This document shows positions 7,948-25,375 of a stretch of DNA of 64,000 nucleotides, one piece after another. A program made the translations under genes and the position numbers. Source of the DNA: Phialocephala subalpina (Eukaryota > Ascomycota > Leotiomycetes > Helotiales > Mollisiaceae); the NCBI GenBank assembly GCA_900073065.1, contig FJOG01000038.1, forward strand, positions 151,243 to 215,242. The letters run 5' to 3'. The notes below the pieces were generated by a model, which was not told the origin of the DNA, did not search any database, and saw only the letters and a program-made list of their open reading frames with translations. How positions within the stretch are numbered: position 1 is the stretch's first letter; the number at the start of each line of letters is the position of its first letter.

Positions 7948-9322
7948 TTATAACTTCGATACTCCAAAGCCTCCCATTGAAGTATCCTTGACCCCAATAT
8001 ACTCCTTGCCTATACCCTCAACCTCTGCAACACCAGTCAATGCCATTGTCTTCGTAAGCTCCCTCTCCAAAATATGAATCACACTCTCCACCCCCTCCTG
8101 CCCCTTATACCCCAAACCCCACAGTACCGGTCTCCCCAACAACACAAAATCCGCCCCCATCGCCAACGCCTCGAGAACATCCGCACCATGTCTAACTCCT
8201 CCATCAAAGATAACCGGGATACTATTCCTCTTCCCTCTTTCAGACACATTGGTAGCGAGCGCTGAATGAATAGCAGGCAAAGCCTCAAGTGTCGAACACA
8301 CCTCATCAAGCTGTCTCCCCCCATGGTTAGAAACGACAATCGCGTCCGCCCCATGCTCCACCGCTAACAGAGCATCTTCGGGTGTCATGATCCCTTTGAG
8401 AATTATTTTCATCTTTGGAGCTGTGAGTCGAAGAAATGGGATGGTGGTGGACCATGTTAGACTATTGCTGTGGGTACTGCCACCCGCCTGCTCGAGGACG
8501 GTGTCAGCTTCTTCCCGGTACGGGCGTCCATGAGAAGTCGGTTTGCTGTTGGTTTGCGCTCAGTTTGAGAGGAGTGGGGTGGTGGGGAGAGGTTAGAGAG
8601 ATGGAGGCCAGGTGGGAGGACGAGGGGGGTCTTGCGTTCGTTGATGCGGTTTCGGAGCACGGGGGTGTCTACTGTTAGGACGAGGGCTTCATAGCCAGCA
8701 GCTAGAGTTACCAATCTTAGGACAAGACTTACAGAACAGAAATATAGATAATTGGTTGGGCATACCTTCCGCCCGTTTGATCAAGGGAACACTTTCTCTG
8801 GGTCTTTCGTGACATAGAGCTGCATCCAGAAATCAGGATCAAACCCACCAATTGAGCTCTGCTTGCAAGACATAACACTTTCCAAGCTCGTAGTTGACTG
8901 CGAGGACAGTGTCAAATTGACGCCGAGTTTCGCCGCTGCTCTCGCAACATCCATTTACCCTTCACCACCTGCAAGTTTCTGCATCGCGCTTGGTGCGAGG
9001 CCGAACGGGACAGGATAATTGCGGCCAAAAAGAGTGGTGCTGGTGTCGATGGAAGACACATCTTGCATTACTCTGGGGAGGATTTTGAGGCTAAGAAAGG
9101 TCAATTAGGTGTGAGGAAGCTTATGGATGGGGACCGCACGCTTTGAAGGCTGCTTCATTCTCGTGCAACACAGTCTGGCTATCCGCTCCGCACTCGTAGT
9201 AATCCCACACCTCCTTTTTTTATGCGAGTCTTAGCGATTGCCGCAACTTCAGCAACTGTGATAGGATCACTTGGTATTGGTGCGTGAGATGCAGGTTTCT
9301 CGGTGTCGTCCTTCCCACTCAT
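7948..9322 (-). pseudogene. decayed FMN-dependent 2-hydroxy-acid oxidase
   Basis: Read from the minus strand, family blocks appear in the right order but in shifting frames. They are DPITVAEVAAIAKTR, EVWDYYECGADSQTVLHENE, VSSIDTSTTLFGRNYPVPFG, KLGVNLTLSSQSTTSLE, FWMQLYVTKDPEKVFP, AAGYEALVLTVDTPVLRNRI, MKIILKGIMTPEDALLAVEH, AIVVSNHGGRQLDE and FDGGVRHGADVLEALAMGAD. The SNHGGRQLD and phosphate-binding GGVR segments are intact. The breaks are a one-base shift in an A-run (T-run on the plus strand, about 9214-9221), an in-frame TAA at 8955-8957, a one-base shift near 8777-8788 and another near 8510-8525. A normal intron sits near 8710-8765. Intact relatives oxidise lactate, glycolate or mandelate. 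The start at 9322 (MSGKDDTEKPAS) fits the family. Four lesions make a sequencing error unlikely. Confidence 0.88.
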
Positions 9323-9660
9323 GCTTACAAAGTTGTACCGAACGAACGTCTTTACTCGAGTCTTGTCCTAAGAGCGTTATCCGCTGACGCAATACCAAGA
9401 TATAAATGCTGTGTCAAGAAACTCTGCAGAGTTGTCTTGATCACAGTCGTATTCTTGAGTCACTTATCGTCATGCCGGGCCGTTGCCGTGAACCTTCGCT
9501 TAATCAAACCTGGACAGGAGATGGTAAGAAGCCACTCTCCTTAGTAGCTTTTCAGTCTTCGAAGTCGACTAACCTGATCGAGACCCTTCCTTCGTGGTAG
9601 CTGATATACAAGGTGGAGAATGCGTCACGATAAGGGTCTGCTAGTCGACTTTCTCACAGA

Positions 9661-9678
9661 ACGGACATACCCCAATGT
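9661..9678 (+). promoter_or_regulatory. putative cluster operator, site 1 (CGG-N3-TACCCCA)
   Basis: Reads ACGGACATACCCCAATGT. It lies about 166 bp before the start of the carboxymuconolactone decarboxylase-like gene and also between that gene and the divergent oxidase pseudogene. It fits the consensus shared with the other four sites. Confidence 0.6.
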
Positions 9679-9843
9679 TGCCGGCTCAGGGCAACTAAGC
9701 GAGATCTGCCCCGCACTTGCAACCCCACTTTCCTCTTTCACTACTAGTATCGAGGATGAGGAGTAGACGCAGAGCCGCCTTTGCCCACTTCCATCCCTTC
9801 TCTCTCGTATGCTTCTATCCTCAATCTCAGACGATAGACGAAA

Positions 9844-10773
9844 ATGAGTGGTTGGGCCAACGACGAGTTCATGAGCAACTGGGACAAGACCTACGTCTCG
9901 ACCAATCTCAAGGATGGAGCTAAAGCCTACGACGCAGCACTCTTCAAAGATCTTCACAGCGAGCTGAGCAGTAACGAGGAATTACAGAAGTTGAGTTCAG
10001 AGATTCTTGTAAGTCTTTCTATATCTAAATAAATGCTGGTTGGGGTTTAGTGACTAAAACACATCTAAGGTCGTAGCAAGCTGTGCACTCGGTCGCGCCG
10101 ACCTAGTAGGGAAGTGGTTCGACGACCAGACTAAAAGCTCCAGCGCAGAGGAATCGCGAAAACTCTTCGTGAGACTGCGAGAGAGTATCATGTGCGTGTA
10201 TCCCTTTCTCGGCGTACCGGCGTGCATGCCAGCCTGCTACGGGATGATCGGGGTTCTCGAGCGGAAAGGACAAGCGTATGGCGACACGACGAGACTACGG
10301 AAACCGTTCATGGATGAGGAGGATGTGGAGAAGGGACGCAAACTCAGAGCTACTATCTACTCATCTGCCGGGAACTCGGGGATATTCGCTCTGATGGATA
10401 AGTACTTTCCAGATCTTTGTAAGTTCCTCTTTACCTTTGGATGAGAAGGGATTCGTAACCGAGAGTGCTGATGATTGTGAAAGATGGCGCATCTACTGCA
10501 ATTACTTGGGGATATCTCATATCAAAGGCTAATGAGGAGATCTTTGAGATGAAGGAATCTCATCTTCTTGTGTTGACGACTATTTGTGGACTCGGGGCTA
10601 CGAGACAGATGGGAAGCCATATAAAGGCCACTATTGGCATCGGAAACACGGTAGCAAATGTCAAGACTTTGATCTCGGTGGTATCCCGGCTTGCAATTTG
10701 GGCCGAGAAGCCTTTCAAGGTACCGGATGTGGATGCGTTGGCTGAACAAGTCAGGCAGGCTGCTAAAGTTTAA
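9844..10773 (+). CDS. carboxymuconolactone decarboxylase / AhpD-like protein
   Basis: Three exons: 9844-10008, 10070-10418 and 10484-10773, giving 267 residues with consistent phases. The protein begins MSGWANDEFMSNWDKTYVST. It contains RLRESIMCVYPFLGVPACMP and YGASTAITWGYLISKANEEI, then ESHLLVLTTICGLGATRQMG and SHIKATIGIGNTVANVKTLI. These are the layout of the fungal carboxymuconolactone decarboxylase-like group with an all-helical AhpD fold. No classic CxxC pair of AhpD is evident, so peroxidase activity is doubtful. In bacteria the family includes decarboxylases of the protocatechuate branch of the beta-ketoadipate pathway; that exact reaction is not established here. The operator-like site upstream and the neighbours point to aromatic or ring-cleavage product metabolism. 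Confidence 0.8.
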
Positions 10774-10865
10774 CCATCAAGCAGAGCTTCAATGTCATCA
10801 CGAATAAAACATGGATTACGGAAACGTGGATTTTGAAGATTGCAGATAATGTGGCAAGTAACAGA

Positions 10866-12362
10866 TCATGACTTTAATGCCATATTGATCATGATTGTTT
10901 TTGGTTCCGTGAATGCTTCAAGTGCAGCCCGCCCATTCTCTCTCCCCACACCACTTTGCTTCGCTCCTCCGACCGGAGTATTGAGCATCTTCAACGTGAT
11001 GCAATTTATCCCCACCAGCCCCGACTCAACATCGCTCGCCATTCTCAGCGCCCTCGTAATGTCGTTCGTGAAGATGCCAGCCATTAGTCCATACTCGAGA
11101 GCGTTCGCCTTTTCTAGGGCTTCCTCTTCCGTCTTGAAAGAATTGAGAATCGATACAGGACCAAAGATCTCATTAGTATAAATCTCCGCACCGGGTTCGA
11201 CGTTGGTGAAAACGGTAGGTGTAACGAAGTAGCCCACGCTTCCCCCTTGTTTGGTGCCTCCGGTCAACAACGTCCCTTGTTTCTCTTGTATGCCGCGTTC
11301 AATAAAGCCAGTAACTCTATCAAACTGGAGTTTATCCACTAATGGTCCCAATAACATACCTTCCTCCTCCGGGTCGCCCATGGTATTCGCTCGTTCCTCT
11401 AGTTTCTCTTTGTACGCCGCTGAAAATTTGTCGAAGATTCCCTCTTGGACGTACAACCTCGTCGTTGCCATGCATATCTGACCACTATTTCCAACAAGGC
11501 CGTTGACACACCACGTAAGAGCATTCTCCAGATCACAATCATCAAATACGATAGCCGGAGACTTGCCCCCAAGTTCCAGATGAACACGCTTCAAATTTGA
11601 CTTCGCCGCCGCTTCCTGGACCTTTTTACCCGTGGGGATGCTTCCCGTAAAACTGATCTTCCGAATCCGCATATGGCTCGACAACAAGGCACCCGTCGAA
11701 CCATCACCAGAAAGGATTTGGAACACGCCTGGTGGAAATCCCGCTTCCTTGATCAGATTCCCAACCGCCAGCGCCGCAAAAGGCGTCTTCTCAGACGGCT
11801 TGAGAATAAAGCAGTTTCCCGTCGCCAAAGCCGGCGCAGCCTTCTCCCCAATCATGATGATGGCCGCATTCCACGGGATGATGGCAGCCGTAACCCCCAA
11901 CGGCTCATTCCTCGTAATCTGCATGATGCCCTCATCCGTCGGCACGGCCTCGCCGTGAAACTTGTCGATCCAGCCAGCATTATACACAAAAGTGTCGGCG
12001 CAGATGTCGATTTCGAACCCGCCGAATCCCGCCCATGGGGCCCCGTGCGTGAGGCGGTTCAGCTGCGTTAACAGCTTTGCGTCCCTCCGGATCAGGGCTG
12101 CGAACTTTAGGAGCATGTCGCGGCGCTGGGAATTGGAGAGTTTCTTCCATGCTGGCAGTGCTTTTTCGGCGGCGAGGACGGCGGCTTCGACGTCTGCTGG
12201 GCCGGCGAGCGGCACTTGGTCGCTGACGAGCGTGGCGTCTTTGGGATTGTGTACGGTTAGAAATTGGCCGGATTGAGAGTCGACGTACTCGTTGTTGATG
12301 AAGAGCTTCAGAGGGAGGTTTGTGACGGAGAAGTCGAATTCGCTTGGCTCCGTGACGGCCAT
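10866..12362 (-). CDS. NAD(P)+-dependent aldehyde dehydrogenase
   Basis: Single-exon, about 498 residues, the usual ALDH length. The ATG at 12362 (MAVTEPSEFDFS) is chosen; the frame is open upstream only from a GTG at 12422. Visible landmarks are the cofactor-side IIPWNAAIIM, KPSEKTP, the FTGSIPTG turn, the general-base Glu in LELGGKSPAIVF, the nucleophile Cys in NSGQICMATTR, and the EIFGPV motif. All key residues are present. It oxidises an aldehyde to the acid in the cytosol; the sequence does not fix the substrate. In this setting an aromatic or ring-cleavage aldehyde is likely. It is convergent with the decarboxylase-like gene, whose stop is only about 90 bp away, and has an operator-like site about 164 bp upstream. 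Confidence 0.93.
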   Translation of the reverse strand: MAVTEPSEFDFSVTNLPLKLFINNEYVDSQSGQFLTVHNPKDATLVSDQVPLAGPADVEAAVLAAEKALPAWKKLSNSQRRDMLLKFAALIRRDAKLLTQLNRLTHGAPWAGFGGFEIDICADTFVYNAGWIDKFHGEAVPTDEGIMQITRNEPLGVTAAIIPWNAAIIMIGEKAAPALATGNCFILKPSEKTPFAALAVGNLIKEAGFPPGVFQILSGDGSTGALLSSHMRIRKISFTGSIPTGKKVQEAAAKSNLKRVHLELGGKSPAIVFDDCDLENALTWCVNGLVGNSGQICMATTRLYVQEGIFDKFSAAYKEKLEERANTMGDPEEEGMLLGPLVDKLQFDRVTGFIERGIQEKQGTLLTGGTKQGGSVGYFVTPTVFTNVEPGAEIYTNEIFGPVSILNSFKTEEEALEKANALEYGLMAGIFTNDITRALRMASDVESGLVGINCITLKMLNTPVGGAKQSGVGRENGRAALEAFTEPKTIMINMALKS

Positions 12363-12525
12363 TTTGAGAGTGTCGGTTGCCTGAGACGTGGACGGAGGAG
12401 TTCCAGTTCGTATTGAGTCCACTGCACTGCAAGCGTTTGTGAATTGAGGGCAGGGCGGCCTGGCGATTGCTTGTTCTACGTGACACTTCCAACTTCCCCA
12501 GTGGAAGCCCCTTCAACCCCACTGT

Positions 12526-12543
12526 TCGGCTGTACCCCAATAT
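12526..12543 (+). promoter_or_regulatory. putative cluster operator, site 2
   Basis: Reads TCGGCTGTACCCCAATAT, about 164 bp upstream of the aldehyde dehydrogenase start, which is on the minus strand. Complement of the right half gives ATTGGGG. Confidence 0.65.
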
Positions 12544-12953
12544 GAGAATAGCAGTGGGGCCGATCCGGGAAACACTCATTCCCCACCACCGCACAGAATC
12601 ACCACTAAACCAGGTCACGCCCATTGAAATGATTAAATAATTGCGTTCAAGCTATCTTAAACTTGGGTTTTGTAGGCTTTTTTGTTTTCAATTTAGAACT
12701 GAAAAGGAGTACAGTGTGCATTGGAAAAGGACCTCCATGGATGAAAATAACCTCTTCGCATCAAACCAGCAAAGGTTCTTATTATTATCAGAGAGAGCAA
12801 GCATTTACATACAAAGAGGGTATCCAGTTTAGCTGCATGCACGAATATGAACCACCCAAAATCTCCAGCCACCATCCTCTGACATCCTACCTACACTCAT
12901 TCACAAGCCTAACTTGAGCTTTGCAGAATTTACAATCCCAGCCGCCTTGCCAC

Positions 12954-14995
12954 CTAGAACTGATGATATTTGCTATTCTTCGTTAATCTCCTCAGGTCCT
13001 TGCCCCAAATCATAAGTCCAATCATGCCAACCAGTGGAAGTGCAATCGCAAGTCCGATCACCAGACCAGTTGCGGGAATGAACCCATCACGCACGATCCA
13101 GTCGTTGATGTAGTAAGTCATTCCAAACTAAATCAGATAATCATCAGCGCAGAGCGAGAAGATAATTGGATCGGGAGTACTTACGCCAAAGGTGTTCTTG
13201 ACAACAGTCGAAGTAACCATGATCTGGCCACTGATCGGCTTGTAGCAATCGATAGCATACTGGAGGCAAATATTAGTTTATTGATGCAGATTGAGGAACA
13301 TGACAGAACTCACCGTGATTGCAACCGTGGGAAGAGATACAGTGAGGAAGCCGAAGAAACCGAAGCCGACGATGATGATGGCTTCCCAAGGCCACTTGTC
13401 TTGACCTCCAATACCAAGAGCCTACAGTACAGTGTCAGCTATCTCATCGAGCAAGGGGGTCAAGTTGGGTTTTCAACTTACAAGCAAGCCAATCAAAGAA
13501 ATAGCCAGGAACGGAATCAGGGCAGGCAACCTCATCTCGGGCTCAAAGACACCGTGATTCTTCTTCGTAGCCCGCAGCGCCACCCAATCGCAGAATGGGC
13601 CGCAAACAAGCAGCGCGATCACACATCCAACCGCGGGCGCAAAGTTCGCGAACCCAATGTTAGCAGAAGAGAAATTGTACGGCGGGTTCGACAGGATGGG
13701 AGACTCGAACAACACAAGCAGGAGAAAGGCATTCGCAGCACCGGCCATGGTCCACGCGGCCCAGCAAACAATTGGGTAGAAGAAGATCTCGACGGGCGTC
13801 CAGAGGTGGATCCAGACTTCGCTCAGGGCTTTACGATCGATGCCTTGGATGATATTGAATTGCTTTCGGCTGGGTTTGCCGTGCTCGAGGGACTCGTCGG
13901 TGACGAATACGTTTTGGTTTTCGACTTCTGCTGTAGCTTGGGGTGACTTTTCATTGTCTGACGCTTCCTGGGAGGCTTCTTGTGCTAGTGTTGGAGGTTG
14001 GTCTCGGTTGAAGCGTGTCTCGGGGAAGGCGACGATTAAGCCGAGTAGGTTGATGGCTTGTGCGATAACGCAGACCCAGAAGAACCATCGCCAGGAAACC
14101 TTTGTGTTGTTAGATTCGGCGTCTGTTGGTAGCGGTTGGGTTGCTAGACTTACTCTGGCAGCGATGTTTCCAGCAATGATTGGGCCGATCATGAGTCCGA
14201 TGAAGAAGGCATAGCTTGGGCTTATGTTAGACTATTCCACGCCTTGCATGTATGGATTTGAAGAGGGATTTACAAATAAATGCCGATGTATTTACCCCTT
14301 TGATGCAAGAAATACATATCAGCGACCACGAGAGGAAGCATGCTCTCGTTTGCTCCAGTACCAAACCCGTTGATAAGCCTGGCCGCCATGAAAGACCAGT
14401 AAGACCCAGCAGCAGCCATCCAGATGTCTGTTGCCAATGTGATGATGCAGCACACGATCATTGTCGGTCGTCTCCCAAAGATGTGCGCACATGGAATAAT
14501 GACAAAGTTGGTATAGCCCAGAGCAATGACCATGACTCCTGTCTAAAGCGCGTTAGACATTTTTTTGTGTTCAAAAAAGGCATCGAGCACATACAAGGAG
14601 TGCGACTTGAGTAGCATTCTTGTTCCACTGCGCCTCGAATATTGGGGACAATGGGGCAATGCACTGAGAAGGCATGATGCTCAACGCTACAAAAACGCAT
14701 TGATTGACCATGATTATGGTCTTCCATTTTGGACTCCAATTCTGCCATTTTCGTCAGTTCTCAAGCACTGTTTGAGGTTTGAGGTTTGTAGTTTTTGGGT
14801 TCCACAAACCAATGGATCGTCCGGCGAGCTTGAGGGCTGAGGCACTAAAACAGTGCTGTTCGCAACGTTGTGGGCATGAATACGGTGAAGGTTGCCGACA
14901 TCCTCTAGCAACTCGGTGCCAGGAAGCATCTCAACATGCAAGTCCCGTTCTGTAGTAAGACGAGCTTGCTGCTCTGCGTTCAGTACCGACGACAT
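12954..14995 (-). CDS. MFS transporter (DHA1-like)
   Basis: A multi-exon gene starting at the ATG at 14995 (MSSVLNAEQQARLTTERDLH). A cytosolic leader runs to the DPLNWSPKWK motif, typical of fungal DHA1-type drug:H+ antiporters. Next come CIAPLSPIFEAQWNKNATQV, the FGRRP loop-2 motif A remnant, RLINGFGTGANES, RWFFWVCVIAQ and the PETRFNRD motif at the central loop. The central loop is long, acidic and Ser/Thr-rich. The last exons encode FGMTYYINDWIVRDGFIPAT and a C-terminus ending SKYHQF. At least five introns are visible. It probably carries an aromatic acid, a related substrate or a toxic intermediate across the plasma membrane. It sits in the cluster with an operator-like site 266 bp upstream. 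Confidence 0.88.
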
Positions 14996-15260
14996 GTTGT
15001 GTACGTCGAGATTTGATCAGGCCAAAGATAGAAAATCAAGTCAACTTTGCATATCGAAATATGGGGAAATCATACGACTGAAGAGCAAGAAAGCTATATA
15101 TGGATGATATTGGTGACTTCAAAAGTTGCTACCATTTCCCAGGAGCGCGGCGTCCAGTCTGAAAACAATACTGTGGCGCGAAATCCGGGGTAGGCCTCTC
15201 GCACGACTCCGCATTCATTGGCCCCTGGGGTGCATCTGCGGGGTACACGACATTCTAGCA

Positions 15261-15278
15261 TCGGATATACCCCATTTT
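15261..15278 (+). promoter_or_regulatory. putative cluster operator, site 3
   Basis: Reads TCGGATATACCCCATTTT, between the MFS gene (start 14995, minus strand) and the 3' end of the regulator gene. It therefore most likely serves the transporter. Confidence 0.55.
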
Positions 15279-15385
15279 GCCCGACAGCTCTCACGTGTCA
15301 TTCATTTTGAGGCCGAAGGAGTTTGGGAGAGTTTCTTTCCATTGTATCTGGTTCCCTGGAAGGGAGGTGGTGGCATACTGCTTGC

Positions 15386-18300
15386 TTAGCTTTCAAGCTG
15401 CTCATGTATACTATCCCACTCCCGATACAAAGCCTCGAGCTTGCATTGGAGGCCCCTCGCCAGTCGCCACAGGCGGGGTCCCCGGCCAAAAGCCTCGATA
15501 CCAGTTTCCAAGACCGCCCGTGGTCTGTCAATCGAAGCCACAGTCCCATCTGCTGCAGTCAATTGCGGATCGCCTACCCTATGCAGCAAATAATGCGATA
15601 AGTTCGGACTGAAAAAAGGGAGTGTGTCTAAGGCTACAGAGGGTCCGGAAGAGCGGTGGTCCTGCCCCTTCTGCTTGAGCAAATATTTTCGAGTGATGCT
15701 GTAAACCCACATGACCAAGGTAGATCGATACACTGCGATGCTCCACCAAGGTGGCCGCAATTTCACATCCGTATCCCGGACGAGCCGTAAAATCTGACCG
15801 CAGTAGACAAGGAGTTCAGGTGCATGCTTTTTTATCTCTTCTTGGATGCTGGAGGCCAATACTCCAATCACCTCCACGTCCGCCTTTCGCGCGAAGTTTT
15901 CGACCGCTTTAAAGGGGCAGAGGAGATTGATGCCGATCAGATGATACTGAATGATCGCCGCACGCGCAGCTGCTAACAGTCGGGCACCTTGTATGTCAAG
16001 AGTCTGAAATTCTGCCAGCCAGCGACGCGTTAGGTTGTGAATTTCTTCAAAGGTTTGAGAAGATGATGATCGAAGCCTGCTGCCAGTATTTCGAGAGCGC
16101 TTCGATTGGGCGTTGAGACTCGCTGTGATTTGGCAGTAGTTTGAGACCATCGAATGAAGCGGGTGGAGAAGCAGACGCAAATCCATCACATTCAGGTCGC
16201 GACCAAATTCTTGGAGCCTGTCTTCGACAAATAGTGAGAACAGTTCGTGCAAAGAGAAGTGAGAGTCGTCGTTTGGGCTACGCTGCGTTTTGTCGAAAGC
16301 TGCTTTCCAAGCTTGGGCATCTGGTGCCATCCAAAGTTTTTCATCTGCCGGCAATTCAACTTCGAGTTCTGATATTAATAGAATTGCGGGAGTGTCGTAG
16401 AAGAGGCTGATTTCTTGATCGGCGATAACCCAGCTGTAGCAGAGCCTGCAATTGTGGGGGTCAGAAATCGTTCACTATCCCAGTTTCTTCGCACAATGAC
16501 CTACCTAGACATTATTTCATGATCCGTCCACGCCTTCCAGTAATCTTCCAATTGGTCGTCGCTCTCAAAATGGTGTCTCCCACCCAAGGGATACAATTTC
16601 TGCGTCCGAGAGTGTCGAAAGTAGCCAGCGTTCCTCATTACCTGTACGAAACGTCAGTCAGTTGTCAAATCAAATCCAAAGAAAGAAAAGTAAAATGACA
16701 AGTATGAGCGAAAATATGTCTTGTTGAAGAAATAATCGGCCCATCCTTGAGCAACAGTGGGATTTGCAAGGTTGCGTCTCTCCGGCATTCAAAGGAACAG
16801 CTAGAATTCGCGGACATCTCCAGACCATGAGGAACAACATAATTCGAGATGGCCACTCACCGCAAGATAAAGATGTCGATGAGTATTGCCAGTATCCATT
16901 TGCGACTTTCGTCCACTGTATGATGTAAGACATGTGAAAATCAAGGCACAGTGTAGTGCCAAGGTGTCCTGTTTGGTGACCCCTCCGCCATCGGTCATCT
17001 TTCTGAGGGAATGTCGGCAGACTTCCGTAAGCTCATAAGAGAATTGGCGAGCCCTTGGAGCAGGATCCAACATTGACCCGAAAGCAATCATGAGAAATAA
17101 CAACAGCGTGGCCTCCCGTTCCCTACTTCGGCTCGCCAACTTGTTAGGATTCAAAGACAAAGCCGGTATCATCGGAGTGAATGGCTCAAAGGTGGTGAGA
17201 AAAATATCCAGGTACTTTTGTAATGACGTCTTCGGTGGTAGGAGGAGAAAGCGATCGGATGAATGTGTGGCAGCTCCTGGCTTTTCCAGGAGTTCGGACA
17301 ATTTCTGTGCTTCTTGTGATTCCATTCCCGTTCGTAGAAACTGTTGGATTGCTATCAGCATCCAATCCCGCGTCTCGTCTGTTAAATCAACGTTCTCGAT
17401 CCGCTCGTGTGGTTCGAAACAGGAATCTCTGTAACGCTCCACAGCATGGCTCCAGGTGGTAAAGTCTTGACATCCCTGACGAGTTTGGTGTTCTACAGGG
17501 CTGGAATAAGCTGTTGTCGTATCAGAAGGGTTTGTGCATTGGCCTAATGCCCACCTGCCCAGCTCTTCATCGTCAAGTGAGAGGTCCGAAGGTATTTGAA
17601 TATCTTGAGGGCTCCAATCCTTTGGCTCTGTGCTGGACCTTCCAGGGACGTCATTTTGAGCTCCGTTCAGATCTGGCAACGAAGCGTTCAACCCGACAGG
17701 GGGCGCGGGTGGAGGCGGTTGGAAACAGTCCCCCATGATAGAATTCAGCGCCGAAAGTCTTGTCTCCCATGTGCTTTCCTCGACATTGAAAGAGAACAGC
17801 CATTCATTATTCAGGCTAGACTCAACCCCAATATACCCATGGAACTCGTCAAACGAACCCAAGTCAGAATTTGGGAATGAATTTGTCTCCGCACTATTTG
17901 AGTTAGGGGCGGCTACAATGTCGGGATACTGCAACGCAGTTGGGTTCGAATTCAGACTTTGCCAATCGAGTTGCGGGAGCCGAGAAACGCCCCAATATCG
18001 TTCGTTAATCTGAACGGAATGAGTCGGCGGCACGGGCTTTGGAGGGACGAAGTTCGGGAAGATTGTTGACGGAAGATTATTGCGATCTGCTGCATGATCC
18101 GCCATTTGTTTACTGGCAGAATTGGCTGTTGGGATTTGAGATGACATCTGCTGAGGTTGAGGAGAAACTCCGATATTAAAAAATCCAGGTTCCTCGTCAG
18201 GCACACAAATGGTAGTTGACTTGTCCTGTGGTGGTATATTCCTGCCAAGATCAAGGGTTTCGACTTCTCCAACCTCCTCATCAGGATCCTGGCCGGGAAC

Positions 18301-18831
18301 CATTTTTAGATCAGGGACGGGGTCATCTGCAAGAGTACTCATCTCCTGGGGTGGCCGTTTCTTGGTGCGAGGAGTGCATGTCAAGCCCTTGGACTGGCAG
18401 CGCCCGCATGGGTTTTGATGATCGCATTTGGTTTTTATCTTCGCGCAAGCAGCGCAAGCCATTGAAGCTCGTTGACCGTCCAACGGCTGTGCATGCAATT
18501 CTTCGCCATTTTGAAGCGATTCGGCAATAGCGTTCTCGTACGCCTCTACCTCGGACTGCGTATGTGTTCTGTAATGCTTCCGGACGAGGTCCCTGCTGAT
18601 GATTAACTACATGCATATACCTACGTCCTGGTCACCTACCGGCGCGTAAATGAAATATGGCAAATCGCACACTTGAACGGGCGAACTTTGGTATCTAGAA
18701 GATGAAGCACGCGTCAGTGGCAAAGAAAATCTCGAGGGCGGGGGGTGGAAGGCCAGCTTACGAGTGAGGACGTGCCGCTGGAGATGCTCATGCCGATTGA
18801 AGAAGCGGCCACAGTAGGCACAAAACACCAT
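15386..18831 (-). CDS. transcription factor with two C2H2 fingers plus Zn2Cys6 domain
   Basis: Exon 1 starts at 18831 (MVF) and encodes finger 1, CAYCGRFFNRHEHLQRH. A spliced His completes it. Exon 2 supplies TKVRPFK and most of finger 2, CAICHISFTRRDLVRKH, whose C-x2-C-x12-H spacing is exact only with the acceptor just before GGACCTC. Exon 3 gives YRTHTQSEVEAYENAIAES, then a Zn2Cys6 cluster with perfect spacing (C-x2-C-x6-C-x5-C-x2-C-x6-C, beginning MACAACAKIKTKC). A Ser/Pro-rich linker follows. The fungal-specific regulatory domain starts about LPPKTSLQKYLDIFLTTFEP and continues over introns near 16.9-16.4 kb to QEISLFYDTPAILL and the end HEQLES. Helix residues RHEHLQRH and TRRDLVRKH resemble the Adr1/Mig1 type that binds G-rich sites. 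It lies amid the cluster it may control. Confidence 0.9.
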
Positions 18832-19076
18832 TCTCCAGGCATCTAACTTGCGTGTATAGTAGCCTTACCGACTTTAGATACGAGGATGATGGAAGGACGG
18901 GTCTTTCATTCAGATCATGAAGGAATGCGCATGAGGTCGAAACTTGAAGGTCTGTCGACTGTCGAATTGACGCGTCCAAGCAAAGATGTCATGGACGTTG
19001 AGGTCGAGTTCGAGTACCCTGTCATGTGCCCCTACCCCGCACTAACCTTAACCAGTGCTTATTACAGCGGTATGCG

Positions 19077-19330
19077 AAACTAATACCAAAACGCGATTTT
19101 GGCCCAATAATATATATCGATATTTAATATACCCTTATATTGTTTAATCTTCATTATTTTAAATTATAAGATATAATTTTTCAATTTCCAAGTTTATTTT
19201 AAAATTTTCTTAATAAATTTTTTTTAATTATTAAATATTTAAAATAATATTTAACGATTTTAAATAATTTATAATTAAAATAATCTTATTTAACTAATAA
19301 AGTACTAAAATCGCGTTTTAGTACTAGTTT
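19077..19330. mobile_element. short AT-rich element with 26-bp terminal inverted repeats
   Basis: The left end AAACTAATACCAAAACGCGA at 19077 onward matches the complement of the right end (19305-19330) at 23 of 26 positions. All three differences are transitions. The 200-bp interior is almost pure A/T with no ORF. This looks like a small non-autonomous DNA transposon (MITE-like) worn by C-to-T changes of the repeat-induced point mutation kind. No clear target-site duplication is seen. Confidence 0.65.
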
Positions 19331-20143
19331 TACATATTATTATAATTATAGCCAATGTGATTAACCCCCTTTCTTTATTTGACCCTCGCCTTTATTCACT
19401 TGAGCAAAGTCAGATCTCTTCCAACTCAACAGGTTCAAATTTCAAGCTTTGCTATTAGAGTAGCACAAGAAGCGAAATCGAGATCATTATTGATTTATTC
19501 GAGAATTTAGCGATGCCAACAATCATTGACATTTTTAGCAATTCCAAACTAATATCCTGCCAGTAGACCTCCGTCTCGAGCGTCGCGCACTTAACTAGTA
19601 TCAACCACCCATCTCAGCATGGCTCGTTGCTAGGTGTGACCTAACGTTCGCATGCTCGAGCCTTTTCAATAAGCCAACATCTCCAGGAGCAGGCGGCCTC
19701 TTTATTATTTGCATTCCAGCTGCTTTCGAAGGTCCGGGGTGGGCGTCTCGTTCCCCACATTAATGGGGTAAAGCCGAAAAGTGGATTTGCAAACCACCTT
19801 CGTGTGGGCGGACGCCGCCATAATGCCTGGAGCACTGGGGTATGCCACCCTAACCGGCAGTATGCAGTGACACAAGCTCTAGATGAGATGACTTCGTGCT
19901 ATGAACGAGGGAAACCAGCGTTTAGAACATTTTTCCCTGTCAATCAAAAGTATCCAGTTGTGAAGCTGATTCTATCCCAGCACCTCGTTTGTTCGAAACC
20001 TAGCAGAGAGACAGCATTCCCTTTCTGTTTGACAAATTCTCTTGCAGATGAATCACATCACCAATATGGTCCAATTTACAGGTCCTAATTCTATCTTCGC
20101 ATATGTTCTGAGACTGTTGCTTGGATTTTTTAAAAATGCAAAG
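19331..20143. other. upstream region of the monooxygenase gene
   Basis: No supported gene; short ORFs at 19641-19835 (minus) and 19804-20088 (plus) have no motif. It contains operator-like site 4 and presumably the promoter and leader of the monooxygenase gene. Confidence 0.45.
19760..19777 (-). promoter_or_regulatory. putative cluster operator, site 4
   Basis: On the minus strand this reads TCGGCTTTACCCCATTAA. It lies about 370 bp before the chosen start of the monooxygenase gene. It is the only one of the five in inverted orientation relative to the window. Confidence 0.6.
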
Positions 20144-22067
20144 ATGGATGGGAAAGAACCAGATCTCACTGTGAGGGACGAAGTAACTGTCCTCATTATA
20201 GGAGGCGGTCCAACAGGGCTCTTGAGTGCTGCGCTTTTAAGTCGGCTCGGGAGTAAGTGAATGGCAGACCGAACATCGAATGCTCCGGGCGAGCATGAAC
20301 TAACAATTCTCAATAGTCAAGTCCCTAATCATTGAGCGACACAAAACTCGGTTGACAGCTCCAAAAGCCCATGCCATCGGTCCACGATCCTTCGACATAC
20401 TCCGCCAATTTGGTTTCGATATTCCCCGAATACGGAGAGAGGGCACGCCAAGAGAATCTGGCAGATGGGTACATTTTGTCACAACACTAGCTGGAGAGAA
20501 GCTGGGAGAGTTGCCGTATGAACGGATGGATGTCGGCGTTCTTAACGATACACCAGAAATGTTCCACAATGTGCCACAGCCTGTCATTGAGGAAATACTT
20601 GCCGAAACCCTCACAGGTTCAGTTGAGATTCGGAAGAACCACGGTTTTGTCTCATGTACGGAAGACAAGGATGGCGTCCGATGCATTGTTGAGGATCGTT
20701 CTACAGGCGAACTGTACCAAATCAAATCGAGATTTGCCATCGCATGTGATGGAGCCAAAAGCAAAGTCCGACAGTGCTTGGGGATCGAAAGCGACGGCGA
20801 AAACGCAGATGTGGCATTGATGACTATCGAAATTGATGCAGATATCCGGCCGATGGTTAAGGACAAGATGGCGATTCTCTACTGGATTATCAATCCCGAA
20901 GCTCACGGAACGATAATCGGATACGATCTTTCCAAGAAGCAGGTCTTGACTTGCAACTTCAACGAAAAAACCCATCCCGTGGAGACCTGGGATGAAGCTC
21001 TCTGCCGCAAGATAGTTGACTCGGCATTTGGAACAGAGGTTCCTTACAGCATCAAAAGCTTTCGTCCTTGGATCATGAGACGTCAAGTTGCTAAGACCTA
21101 TCGAAAGGGAAACATTTTCCTCGCCGGCGACGCGGCACACTCGTTTCCGCCCAGCGCTGGCATTGGTCTCAATTCTGCATTTGGCGATGTCCACAACCTC
21201 TGTTGGAAGATCGCTGCAGTCTCTGACGGATGGGCCAGCGAGGACCTTTTATCGACTTACGACTCGGAACGGCGGCGAATTGCCGAGATCAACTCAATAC
21301 AGAGCGTGAAAAATGGGCAAAAGATCTACGGTCTGATCAAAGACTTATCTTTCTCCGACACAACTCCCGAAAAAGGTTGGGAATCGTTGCGGAAAACTCT
21401 GGAAAATGCCACGGAGAGACAGACGATGCTGAAGAGAATTCAAGAACGCTCGGAAAATTTTGACAATGTGAGTGCCTGACCAGCTACTCCGCTTTTTGAA
21501 AGGTGTTGACAACCGTCCTAGCTTGAACTTCACATTGGCTATGTGTATGGTTCTCAAGAAATCCCTGCAAATCCATCGGCGTATCGTCCCAAATACATAA
21601 AAGGGGCGAGGCTCCCGCATCTTTGGATCCGCCCGATCACACCAGAGATTCGCGAGACAATTCTGCCGGTAGACTTGCAACACATCTATGAATTTTCATC
21701 AACTGAAAAACAGCTGCGGCAGTACTCGACATTAGATCTCTGCCGCCGTGATTCCTTCACACTGGTAGTCAATTCGAGTACGGCTCGATCAGAGAGAGTC
21801 TCCAAGTTGCTTGAGCTTCTTGGAAGTGACAGGCAAGGAAAGACAGCTGTGCCAGTTCGTGTTGCTATATTGGGTGTTGATTTTGATATCGTGTTCAAGG
21901 ATCAAGCTACGGAGTGGATTGAGAGGTTTGGGTTGGGCGAAGGACAGTCAGGCGGCGTTTTGGTGCGTCCTGATCAGCATATAGTGTCGGTGCTAAATGA
22001 CAACGTCTCGGCGCAACAACTGGTCTCGGAAATATATCAAGCTGCAGAGTGGGAAACAAAACAGTAG
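20144..22067 (+). CDS. FAD-dependent aromatic monooxygenase (phenol hydroxylase-like)
   Basis: Three exons: 20144-20252, 20317-21467 and 21522-22067, about 600 residues. The ATG at 20144 (MDGKEPDLTVRDEV) places the FAD-binding LIIGGGPTGLLSAALLSRLG near the N-terminus as usual; an upstream in-frame ATG at 20048 is possible. The class A flavoprotein hallmarks follow: CDGAKSKVR (the DG motif), GNIFLAGDAAHSFPPSAGIG (the second FAD/ribityl motif) and NSAFGDVHNLCWKIA. The third exon is the thioredoxin-like C-terminal domain (VVNSSTARSERVSKL to VLVRPDQHIV) of phenol 2-monooxygenase relatives. It would hydroxylate an aromatic ring using NAD(P)H and O2. It is the likely committing step of the cluster. 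Confidence 0.93.
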
Positions 22068-22390
22068 CAAGTGGTATTTACTGTAAAATGCATGTCGTTC
22101 AATCCATTTCACCCCTTGTCCCGAGCTCGCTTGCTATCTAACTAAATTTCATTCAAAACACTGCAGAAACTAATGAAACCCCCTTTTTAGGTTTTTATAT
22201 TACATGAATCCAATTAAAGCGTGTATTTTGTTGTATTGGGATTGGAAAAAGTGAATTCAAAGCACGCGCAAAAGTAAAAAAAATTGAAGTGTTGCGAATC
22301 GGGCGTTGCAGCGAGAGAGGGAAGCCTATACGGGCAATATGCTAGAGTAACAACATAAACACCAGGATTAGGATTTAAAATATGTATAGT
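22068..22390. other. intergenic between convergent genes
   Basis: AT-rich 3' flanks of the monooxygenase and DUF3500 genes; no gene seen. AATAAA-like signals are not clear. Confidence 0.4.
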
Positions 22391-23671
22391 TTATAGATCT
22401 TTGTGTTTCTCCTGATATTGTCTTAGTAGTTCTTTGCCATAGTCATTTCCATTCGGGGTCCTGATAAGTGTATGAATGTGGAACGGACGAGGTTCCTTGT
22501 TCGTAAGAAACACACCCGAGTGATGGTCAAACTCGAGCATAGTGACAGGAGAGTGTATCTTGTAATAAAAGACATCTTCCACCCCCCACCCCCCAATCCA
22601 ACAGAAGTACGTCTCACTCCAATATTTCTCAATTTCAACAATCTTTTGTCTCAACGAATCTTCCGGCAAAAACTCAAGAGTCAATCGCACAATCTTCCGT
22701 ACAGTTTGTTGAACGTCAGATGGAAATTCGGATACCAGAACCCCTTCATAAGGAATTACTCGATTATCCTGGAATGCACCGCCGAGATGTCTTTGGTCTG
22801 CTCGATGAAATCGCCATTCAGGCATTGCTTCAGCTTTGAGACTGTCGTAAATCTGGACCTTCGCCTGAATAGAAGGCTCTAAAGCTGCCATGACTTCCAT
22901 TCCTGCTGCCTCTTGAGCCTCAAACAAGCACAATCCTTTGTCTGGCCCATCATCCACGACATTGGGTTCAGCGCCCATGAACACGGGGGAAATGACCTGT
23001 TGTGACGCCAGAACAAAACAGTTGAGACATAAGTGGTGCCCAGTCAATTGCCATCCCCAAGGAGCAGCCGTAGATGGTTTCCCAAAAATAGAAATATTGT
23101 AGGATTTCGCGTTCAGCACTCCGGGAGCCTCGACAATGCTGCCGAGGAAATGGTTGACTTTCATACATCCAGCAACTTTTGCATAGCCTGATGGCGATAG
23201 ACTGGCTTTCAAAAGTTCATGTACGGCTTCCACAAACTCGTTCGAGGTTTCTTCCAATCTCAACCCATGTCTAAAGACGTAGAGCTCGGGGTTCGCCCAA
23301 GCTCGCCATTCTTTTGCGTCGATATCATGCTGAATCGCAGCCAGCTGATCTGATGATAACTGGGTAAGCATGTTCTCAGCTGCTGCAACCATTGAGTGTG
23401 TTGTGGCTGAAGGTTTTGTTGAAGGCTCAAATAGCTTGAAGAGGTCCTCGCGTTTTGTCCCATCAGTGGTGATCCCTTTGAACGGCTGGTTCAGTTTCTC
23501 TCGCCATTGAGCTGTCCAGTTGCCTACGAATGGGTCGGCGGCAAGACGATCTTGGAGCCACTCATAGGTATTGGCTCCCGCCAGAAACTTTTTGGAGAAT
23601 CTCGGGTAGGTTTCGTCGGGAATGAACTGTCGATATGGTGAAAGCGCTTCGCTGCTGGCGTCACTCATCAT
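22391..23671 (-). CDS. DUF3500 family protein
   Basis: Single exon of 426 residues, start MMSDASSEALSPYRQ (either of two adjacent ATGs). The family core is clear: PWGWQLTGHHLCLNCFVLAS, VISPVFMGAEPN, FDHHSGVFLTNKEPRPFHIH and RTPNGNDYGKELLRQ. The conserved His residues (HH in the first and third blocks, HIH) could bind a metal, but that is inference. The function of DUF3500 is not known to me. It is divergent from the hydrolase-fold gene at 24309 and shares a promoter region holding operator-like site 5. It is therefore likely co-regulated with the aromatic pathway. Confidence 0.9.
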   Translation of the reverse strand: MMSDASSEALSPYRQFIPDETYPRFSKKFLAGANTYEWLQDRLAADPFVGNWTAQWREKLNQPFKGITTDGTKREDLFKLFEPSTKPSATTHSMVAAAENMLTQLSSDQLAAIQHDIDAKEWRAWANPELYVFRHGLRLEETSNEFVEAVHELLKASLSPSGYAKVAGCMKVNHFLGSIVEAPGVLNAKSYNISIFGKPSTAAPWGWQLTGHHLCLNCFVLASQQVISPVFMGAEPNVVDDGPDKGLCLFEAQEAAGMEVMAALEPSIQAKVQIYDSLKAEAMPEWRFHRADQRHLGGAFQDNRVIPYEGVLVSEFPSDVQQTVRKIVRLTLEFLPEDSLRQKIVEIEKYWSETYFCWIGGWGVEDVFYYKIHSPVTMLEFDHHSGVFLTNKEPRPFHIHTLIRTPNGNDYGKELLRQYQEKHKDL

Positions 23672-23995
23672 GAGATCGGTTGAGAGTTGAAATTCACGAC
23701 AGCCGGGTCGTTGTTGATGATGGTGAATATACAGGTAAGATGTAATTCAACCATGAAGATGGTCTCCCAATATTGTCCTCTTTAGACTATTGACAATGGA
23801 TGTCTTGGAAGCGTTCCGGGGTCACGGGATCCGCCAGAATGTGTCAGTGAGCAACAACCCTTGGTCTCTCCATGGCCGGATCGTGCTCAATCGACGACCC
23901 CCATTCTTCAATGCCAACGGCTTACCCCAAAGGCCCAGTTTTTCATTTGCCGTAACAGACTTTGTCTTGTGGAGTCCTGATCGTCGGGATTTTCG

Positions 23996-24013
23996 TCGGC
24001 TTTACCCCAATAT
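23996..24013 (+). promoter_or_regulatory. putative cluster operator, site 5 (divergent promoter)
   Basis: Reads TCGGCTTTACCCCAATAT. It sits between the divergent DUF3500 and FAH-family genes, about 325 bp from the first and 296 bp from the second. A degenerate copy with one base fewer, ACGGCTTACCCCAAAG, lies about 75 bp upstream near 23917. Confidence 0.65.
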
Positions 24014-24308
24014 CCTGGTCCCTTTAAGCGAATCGGTGGCGGGGGCGACTAGCGAGAAAGGGGGGAGGTGGAGCCGAAGCCGAAGTCTTTCACATTTTGG
24101 ATTCCAACATATTCGTGGCAATCGCGTAATAGTTGAGCAGCAATAGGACTCTTTGATCACGAGGGAAATAGAGCCTTGAAGCACGCTAGGTTCTCCGGAA
24201 ATATCCACGCGGGGTAGCCTCCGGATACACGTTGCCATAATATATCGCATCTTGAGAGAGCAATACCTTGATTTACAGCCCATTTAAAACACCATCGGAT
24301 ACACCAAG

Positions 24309-25375
24309 ATGCATTTTGAACGTCTTATTCGGTTTATTGATGAAAATGGGGATCGCCACTTTGGCGAGCCATTGGTCTCCTCTCCAGAAGAGTTGCAAGA
24401 GCGTTTAAACAAAGGAGTCTTGAAAGCCCGCGCGTTGCAAGGGCTGGAAGGAGGAAGATGGCTGAACTTCGAGGCTGCGCGTCCGAAAGATCCTGAGGAA
24501 CTTCTGTCAGTCAAACAGCTTATTGGTCCTTTGGATCCAGAGTACATCCCGATCATTCGCTGCATCGGTCTGAACTACATAAAGCATAGTAAGGCAATAC
24601 CTTACATCTGTTTCAGTAGTCTTCGACGGCTTCAGACTGACGTAAATTTAAAATAGTTGAGGAAGGTGGACGCAAACCGCCACCATACCCCTCGGTCTTC
24701 ATCAAGCCATCAGCATCAACAGCCGGGTGGAATGACGATATTCCTATTCCTACGCTCGCCCAGAATGCTCAACTTGATTATGAAGGAGAACTGGTATGAT
24801 TGTCTTTTTCAAGATAGGACTTACTAGCTAATAAACATCGAACTTACAGGCAATCGTGATTGGAAAGGATGCAAAAGACATCACTGCTGAGAATGCTTTG
24901 GAATACATCGCGGGTTACACCACGGCGAACGACATCTCAGTGCGCAAATGGCAACGAGACCCAGCGTTTGCCGGAGTAGTTCCGCAGTGGTGTTTCTCCA
25001 AGGGCTTCGATGCGTTCTGCCCCCTAGGACCTATGATCGTCTCTCCCAAGGTCAGAATCAAGATCTAATAGACTGAGAAAGATATCTAATCCTGAACAGC
25101 TGCTTGGTGCCGCCGACAACCTTCCTCTCAAGACGCTTGTAAATGGCGAGGTAAGGCAGGACTCAAATACTTCTGATCTCCTGTTTGGCGTTCGCAAGAT
25201 TGTTAGTTTCTGCAGTCAAGGAACTACTTTGCAAAGAGGTTCTATAATTTTGACCGGCACACCTTCGGGGGTCGCAATGGGTATGGCAATTCCTAAATGG
25301 TTACAACATGGTGATGTGGTTGAGGTGTCGATTGGGGGTATTGGAAGTATTAAGAACAGGATAGTGTTTCAATGA
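24309..25375 (+). CDS. fumarylacetoacetate hydrolase family enzyme
   Basis: Four exons: 24309-24588, 24657-24793, 24850-25050 and 25100-25375, about 297 residues. The N-terminal domain begins MHFERLIRFIDENGDRHFGE. The catalytic fold shows CIGLNYIKH, PSVFIKPSAS, the metal ligand region LDYEGELAIVIGKDAK, GYTTANDISVR, SKGFDAFCPLGP and ILTGTPSGVAMG. Asp/Glu ligands (DYEGEL, NDIS) are kept. Members cleave or isomerise acylpyruvates and ring-cleavage dienes (for example 5-carboxymethyl-2-hydroxymuconate isomerase-type reactions). The size matches those short forms rather than true fumarylacetoacetase of about 420 residues. It probably acts late in the pathway. Confidence 0.92.

Follow-up and report, generated by a model that had tools for sequence, protein, structure and literature searches.

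The five promoter regions of one gene cluster in Phialocephala subalpina share a gapped element, CGG-N3-TACCCCA-[AT]T (A[AT]TGGGGTA-N3-CCG on the opposite strand), and we think it very probable that this repeated element is a shared functional operator. The cluster lies in a stretch of 64,000 nucleotides of contig FJOG01000038.1, which is called the window below, and it probably degrades aromatic compounds. Its regulator PAC_16463, which combines C2H2 zinc fingers with a Zn2Cys6 domain, is, as judged from the sequence, the likely binder of the operator, and with somewhat less confidence we favour the view that these two domain types split the site between them.

A gapped element shared by five promoters

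An exact search of the 64-kb window for the core CGG-N3-TACCCCA gave five copies, all within 9662-24009, which correspond to the five promoter regions of the cluster; there is no other copy in the window, and 100 dinucleotide shuffles that served as control contained 0.01 copies on average and 1 at most. In each copy the core is followed by A or T and then by T, so that the element has eleven invariant positions and one that is A/T. The sites read CGGACATACCCCAATGTT (from 9662, +; core 9662-9674), CGGCTGTACCCCAATATG (from 12527, +; core 12527-12539), CGGATATACCCCATTTTG (from 15262, +; core 15262-15274), CGGCTTTACCCCATTAAT (from 19776, -; core 19764-19776) and CGGCTTTACCCCAATATC (from 23997, +; core 23997-24009). 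The first-pass annotation of this DNA had recognized all five sites and the [AT] after the core, which is indeed present in 5/5 copies, but its plus-strand starts were one base too low and it did not mention the further T, likewise present in 5/5. On the opposite strand, three of the sites carry TTGGGG and two ATGGGG, in each case followed by TA, N3 and CCG. The N3 and the outer flanks vary among the five copies, which disfavours copied promoter blocks as their origin.

The gene models used here are predictions and the families are those of Pfam. By these models, each of six structural genes has a site, in either orientation, 165-340 bp upstream of its predicted ATG (Table 1). The earlier statement that the operator stands upstream of every intact enzyme or transporter gene holds, as each transcription unit that includes an intact structural gene (six such genes in all) has one site. 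The window contains 16 copies of the heptamer TACCCCA itself: five are accompanied by CGG at gap 3, one at gap 2 and ten at neither. Seven of the 16 fall into the cluster span, where CGG is found at gap 3 (five), gap 2 (one) and gap 11 (one), and none of the nine outside the span has CGG at gap 2 or 3. Those previously named as lacking CGG (27514, 31596, 38724, 46942 and 54922) do lack it, but the list was incomplete, as it left out 5579, 8108, 19842, 30014, 52176 and the gap-2 occurrence at 23923.

Chance and the choice of the motif

As the motif was picked after inspection, all patterns consisting of a 3-mer, a gap of 0-12 and a 7-mer were enumerated on both strands of the five upstream regions (9461-9843, 12360-12740, 15007-15385, 19300-20047 and 23672-24308). 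Among ~63,500 gapped patterns, CGG-3-TACCCCA alone was common to all five regions, and the one pattern found in four, TCG-4-TACCCCA, is a shifted form of it. When the regions were shuffled 300 times with dinucleotides kept, the most widely shared pattern was common to two regions in 273 cases and to three in 27. A control with real sequence, for which 200 length-matched sets of five were taken from 40 other genome loci, gave two (162 sets) or three (38 sets). When 200 further sets were drawn from other parts of the window, with overlap of the stretches allowed, the outcome was two in 141 sets, three in 54 and four in 5. At the rate of the copies outside the cluster, five core copies in 14.35 kb have a Poisson probability of 2.2e-12, or ~1e-8 genome-wide; this figure still contains the choice of the motif after inspection, for which reason the pattern enumeration and the real-sequence control were used to address that choice. 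It has been considered that the five copies might reflect chance, or copied promoter DNA without function, since elsewhere in the genome the 10-base core is no more frequent than background. The shuffles, the enumeration, the Poisson estimate and the real-sequence statistics all speak against this, and so do the variable N3 and outer flanks, which are not those of duplicated promoter blocks, and we regard this explanation as very improbable.

Distribution in the genome

The genome assembly comprises 68.1 Mb in 119 contigs and contains 63 copies of the core, 58 of them outside the cluster, compared with 37 for the pattern read backwards. When gaps of 0-12 are pooled, 739 matches are obtained (reversed control 769), which amounts to ~57 per gap. 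As gap 3 with its 63 copies is no commoner than the gap average, the 58 outside copies look like background, and these counts do not support a genome-wide regulon. The extended form CGG-N3-TACCCCA-[AT]T has 8 copies in 68 Mb, 5 in this cluster and 3 outside (reversed control 5), and the [AT]T extension was present in 2 of the 40 outside copies, out of 58, that were examined with their flanks. From these counts the regulon looks private to the cluster. An equal abundance of the pattern throughout the genome had been named earlier as the observation that would speak against a shared operator; this check was run and did not refute that reading, with five of the eight extended copies located in the cluster.

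One of the three outside extended copies (locus L039) lies 3' of a frame with a Zn2Cys6 pattern as recognized by eye, the copy in locus L018 has no convincing gene, and the third is on contig C111. Two pairs of outside core copies lie within 14.4 kb of each other (contigs C43 and C62), against ~0.7 expected. Stop-to-stop frames of at least 120 codons contain 26 of the 40 examined outside copies (25 of 40 without N frames), 3 of the 5 sites in the cluster and 60% of the positions drawn at random from these loci (2362 of 3912). The outside copies thus fall as randomly drawn positions do, but such frames cannot separate promoter from coding positions. In 15 loci with DUF3500, monooxygenase, carboxymuconolactone decarboxylase (CMD)-like, dual-regulator-like or scytalone dehydratase matches, no outside core copy was found within 183 kb.

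Sites for a carbon catabolite repressor of the CreA/Mig1 type also have to be considered, as one strand carries a GGGG core and catabolic genes are generally known as frequent CreA targets. The Mig1 consensus SYGGGG, as given in the accessible part of PMC3897899, is however matched by 0/5 sites, which have T (3) or A (2) in place of S. This consensus does not include a fixed CGG, and many copies would be expected for a global repressor, whereas the extended form has 8, so that such sites hardly come into question.

The regulator PAC_16463 and its relatives

The regulator encoded at 15386-18831 is identical to PAC_16463 of P. subalpina, named "Transcription factor Pig1p" in UniRef and not mentioned in the available portions of the P. 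subalpina literature that was searched. It has two N-terminal C2H2 fingers (~4-24 and 30-52), a Zn2Cys6 domain and a PF04082 middle homology region. Finger 2 (PF00096, 30-52) and the Zn2Cys6 domain (PF00172, 87-120) are above the Pfam cut-off, finger 1 is recognized by the residues C4, C7, H20 and H24 with PF13465 below cut-off, and the PF04082 region is taken from the precomputed domains of the identical database protein P0001. In an alignment of the fingers of four proteins, from P. subalpina (PAC_16463), Xylariales sp. PMI_506, Ilyonectria sp. and Chaetomidium, the residues R13, E15, H16 and R19 of finger 1 and R41 and D43 of finger 2 do not vary, whereas L, L, V and L occupy position 44 and K, K, R and R position 47. 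Under the usual finger rules, GGG should be the preferred triplet of finger 1, and finger 2 should favour one with G at its end. The solved-structure matches of PAC_16463 include the Adr1 structure 2ADR (E 1.2e-11), with better matches existing.

For a comparison with other genomes, 120 of 4998 DUF3500 relatives, 120 of 946 monooxygenase relatives and 12 regulator relatives (P0002-P0013) were used, and an equal contig size for two relatives was taken as a proxy that suggests, and does not prove, a common contig. Among the matches listed, relatives of the regulator, the DUF3500 protein and the monooxygenase are found together on equal-sized contigs of 126455 and 2384592 bases (the latter from Xylariales sp. 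PMI_506), relatives of the regulator and the monooxygenase on contigs of 143789 and 13837 bases, and relatives of the regulator and the DUF3500 protein on contigs of 9366 and 887527 bases (the latter from Ilyonectria). By this proxy, at least 6 of the 12 regulator relatives have a size-matched DUF3500 and/or monooxygenase partner.

These contigs bear on the possibility that a functional operator is read by a regulator encoded outside the cluster, with PAC_16463 acting elsewhere. There is no site near the ATG of the regulator gene (the closest is 933 bp away), and regulators encoded in a cluster are not always the binders of its promoters, both of which would fit such an arrangement. A wider regulon would be more usual in that case, yet the outside copies are at background level, and the equal-sized contigs in several other genomes point to a regulator that belongs with the monooxygenase and the DUF3500 protein. 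We think that an outside regulator is improbable.

The same genome contains a paralogous set of DUF3500, flavin adenine dinucleotide (FAD) monooxygenase and CMD-like genes at C43:1760587-1766546 (1.760-1.767 Mb; parts in L010, L014 and L057), and no dual-regulator match was found on contig C43. The operator is absent from the 901-bp piece that contains the divergent promoter of this set (L057): no CCCC there has a CGG within 12 bases, and the piece carries one lone TTGGAG and one lone CCCCAT. This absence is in line with a reading of the operator by the cluster's own regulator. A match to the PAC_16463 query revealed a second regulator of similar make-up on contig C63 (L056:2172-5035), where the listed frames include no evident catabolic neighbour by eye. 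The 8 kb around this paralogue (L056) contain no CGG-N3-TACCCCA, and two CGGCCCCA[AT] without the gap are found at 943 and 7331 on the minus strand. The 10-base motif is absent from the scytalone dehydratase contigs C60, C6 and C37, and a link to melanin was examined through the scytalone dehydratase positions alone.

A proposed composite reading of the site

The presence of a C2H2 pair and a Zn2Cys6 domain in PAC_16463, together with an Adr1-like TTGGGG or ATGGGG plus a CCG in the sites, led us to propose a composite site that is read by one protein. On balance we favour an operator of the cluster regulon that PAC_16463 would read as a composite, with the Zn2Cys6 domain on CGG and the fingers on [AT]TGGGG. 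In detail, the Zn2Cys6 domain would contact the single CGG triplet, finger 2 would bind [AT]TG and finger 1 GGG, and the constant spacing would separate the sub-sites by about one helical turn. By binding to the operators, the regulator would then switch on uptake, by the major facilitator superfamily (MFS) transporter, together with the catabolic enzymes, and the trigger would probably be an aromatic substrate or intermediate. The sequence itself shows the motif, where it stands, how rare it is elsewhere and which domains the regulator has; the binder, the sharing of the site between domains, activation rather than repression and the inducer are what we infer.

As the gap is the same in 5/5 sites, one rigid reader or a fixed complex is favoured. 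A functional operator could also be bound by PAC_16463 through one of its domain types, with the other half belonging to a partner protein; the C2H2 pair, for example, would then cover the whole TACCCCAWT block, or a Zn2Cys6 domain would recognize CGG plus its flank. C2H2 proteins alone frequently reach high specificity, and composite elements for two proteins are generally known to be common. This possibility is weakened by the constant gap between the halves in all five sites and by the occurrence of both domain types within a single protein encoded in the cluster, and we consider it rather unlikely, while taking it seriously.

Several observations weigh against the composite reading by PAC_16463. 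In the chain, the Zn2Cys6 domain comes after finger 2, but the CCG lies beyond the sub-site of finger 1, so that the 35-residue linker must reach back across that sub-site. The tentative assignment of fingers to bases depends on general finger rules and on Adr1 helix residues, and the predicted structure of PAC_16463 is too poor to test the composite reading (mean predicted local distance difference test score, pLDDT, 38.1). For the remaining 6 of the 12 regulator relatives, whose contigs measure 4.5-23 kb, the matches listed include no partner. Finally, a near-copy with a spacing of 2 (23918-23929) stands in the same divergent promoter as operator 5, and it may represent a second, degenerate site or indicate that this spacing is tolerated.

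Comparison with known regulators

Regulators with both C2H2 and Zn2Cys6 domains, Cmr1 and Pig1, have been known since 2000. PAC_16463 has the domain order of these regulators of 1,8-dihydroxynaphthalene (DHN) melanin from Colletotrichum, Magnaporthe and Alternaria, with the Zn2Cys6 domain at 87-120 as compared with 73-116 in Alternaria Cmr1, but it sits in an aromatic-type catabolic cluster and not in a melanin cluster. For Alternaria Cmr1, the accessible part of PMC10789848 places fingers at 2-24 and 30-52 and a GAL4-type domain at 73-116, and also names PF04082. According to excerpts of PMC12426039, melanin was lost when the zinc cluster of Cmr1/Pig1 was deleted and was lowered when the C2H2 part was removed, which indicates that both domains matter in this class of regulators. 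No operator of the Cmr1/Pig1 class was found in the accessible portions of the open-access literature (including PMC10789848, PMC12426039, PMC8826823, PMC8781371, PMC10252820 and PMC3486909), with most subscription papers outside the search. The element described here might or might not turn out, with about equal weight on both sides, to be the first identified operator of Cmr1/Pig1-type regulators, in which one protein would read a rigid composite site with two unrelated folds. BbCmr1 of Beauveria bassiana shares the Cmr1 name, but the available text of PMC8826823 describes it with a Zn2Cys6 domain only, never uses the term C2H2 and reports the site A4GA3, which is unrelated to CGG-N3-TACCCCA.

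Yeast Adr1 is used here in the sense of "works like" and not of membership, as the finger pair of PAC_16463 is likewise expected on a GGG-type and a TG-type triplet. The Adr1 consensus TTGGRG, in the available part of PMC3897899, is matched exactly by 3/5 sites (TTGGGG), and 2/5 are one base off (ATGGGG). Adr1 uses an additional region, N-terminal, for A-T-rich DNA, and two monomers of it bind a palindrome, as stated in excerpts of PMC2527678 and PMC6769490, whereas the second reader in PAC_16463 would be the Zn2Cys6 domain.

The pathway-specific Zn2Cys6 regulators of the quinate and tannate/gallate (TanR) type resemble the present case in the clustering of regulator and catabolic genes, in the Zn2Cys6 domain and in the CGG triplet. 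The usual Zn2Cys6 sites are paired CGG triplets for dimers; here, in contrast, a single CGG is joined to a finger-type block. A cluster-specific operator is of a kind that is already known, and the composite reading would make it a novel form of that kind. If true, a single CGG without a palindrome would give cluster-level specificity in a 68-Mb genome, and the division of labour would be testable on five natural copies of a site whose halves fit two domains. The operator would also serve as a search motif for related regulons and as an entry point to a catabolic cluster, so far little studied, that includes a DUF3500 protein.

The gene cluster

The proposed operators and the genes around them are compiled in Table 1. 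Neither Pfam nor NCBIfam gave a match for the CMD-like protein.

Table 1. Proposed operator sites and predicted genes of the cluster, in window coordinates.
Feature	Position	Strand	Remarks
Operator 1	9662..9676	+	CGG-N3-TACCCCA-AT; 170 bp 5' of predicted ATG of CMD-like gene
CMD-like gene	9844..10774	+	ATG 9844; AhpD/carboxymuconolactone-decarboxylase-like by reading alone
Aldehyde dehydrogenase gene	10866..12362	-	PF00171; ATG 12362
Operator 2	12527..12541	+	165 bp 5' of predicted ATG (12362) of aldehyde dehydrogenase gene; orientation opposite to gene
MFS transporter gene	12954..14995	-	PF07690; ATG 14995; 5' exons read in frames only
Operator 3	15262..15276	+	267 bp 5' of predicted ATG (14995) of MFS gene; 3' end of regulator gene on other side
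Regulator gene PAC_16463	15386..18831	-	1017 aa; ATG 18831; between MFS and monooxygenase genes
Operator 4	19762..19776	-	272 bp from ATG of FAD monooxygenase gene, 933 bp from ATG of regulator gene
FAD monooxygenase gene PAC_16464	20048..22067	+	PF01494; ATG 20048
DUF3500 gene	22391..23671	-	PF12006; ATG 23671
Near-copy CGG-N2-TACCCCA	23918..23929	+	same divergent promoter as operator 5
Operator 5	23997..24011	+	divergent promoter; 326 bp from DUF3500 gene, 300 bp from FAH-family gene
FAH-family hydrolase/isomerase gene	24309..25375	+	PF01557; ATG 24309

Across operator 1, a gene for a flavin mononucleotide (FMN)-dependent dehydrogenase (7948-9460) is divergent from the CMD-like gene and looks broken: its last third alone is open, matching PF01070 positions 219-348, and each of the three frames ahead of it is interrupted by stops. 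A segment with 85% A+T (19080-19340), possibly a decayed repeat, lies between the regulator gene and operator 4 and parts the regulator promoter from the operator. The fold comparison for the DUF3500 protein gave one clear match, ApmL.

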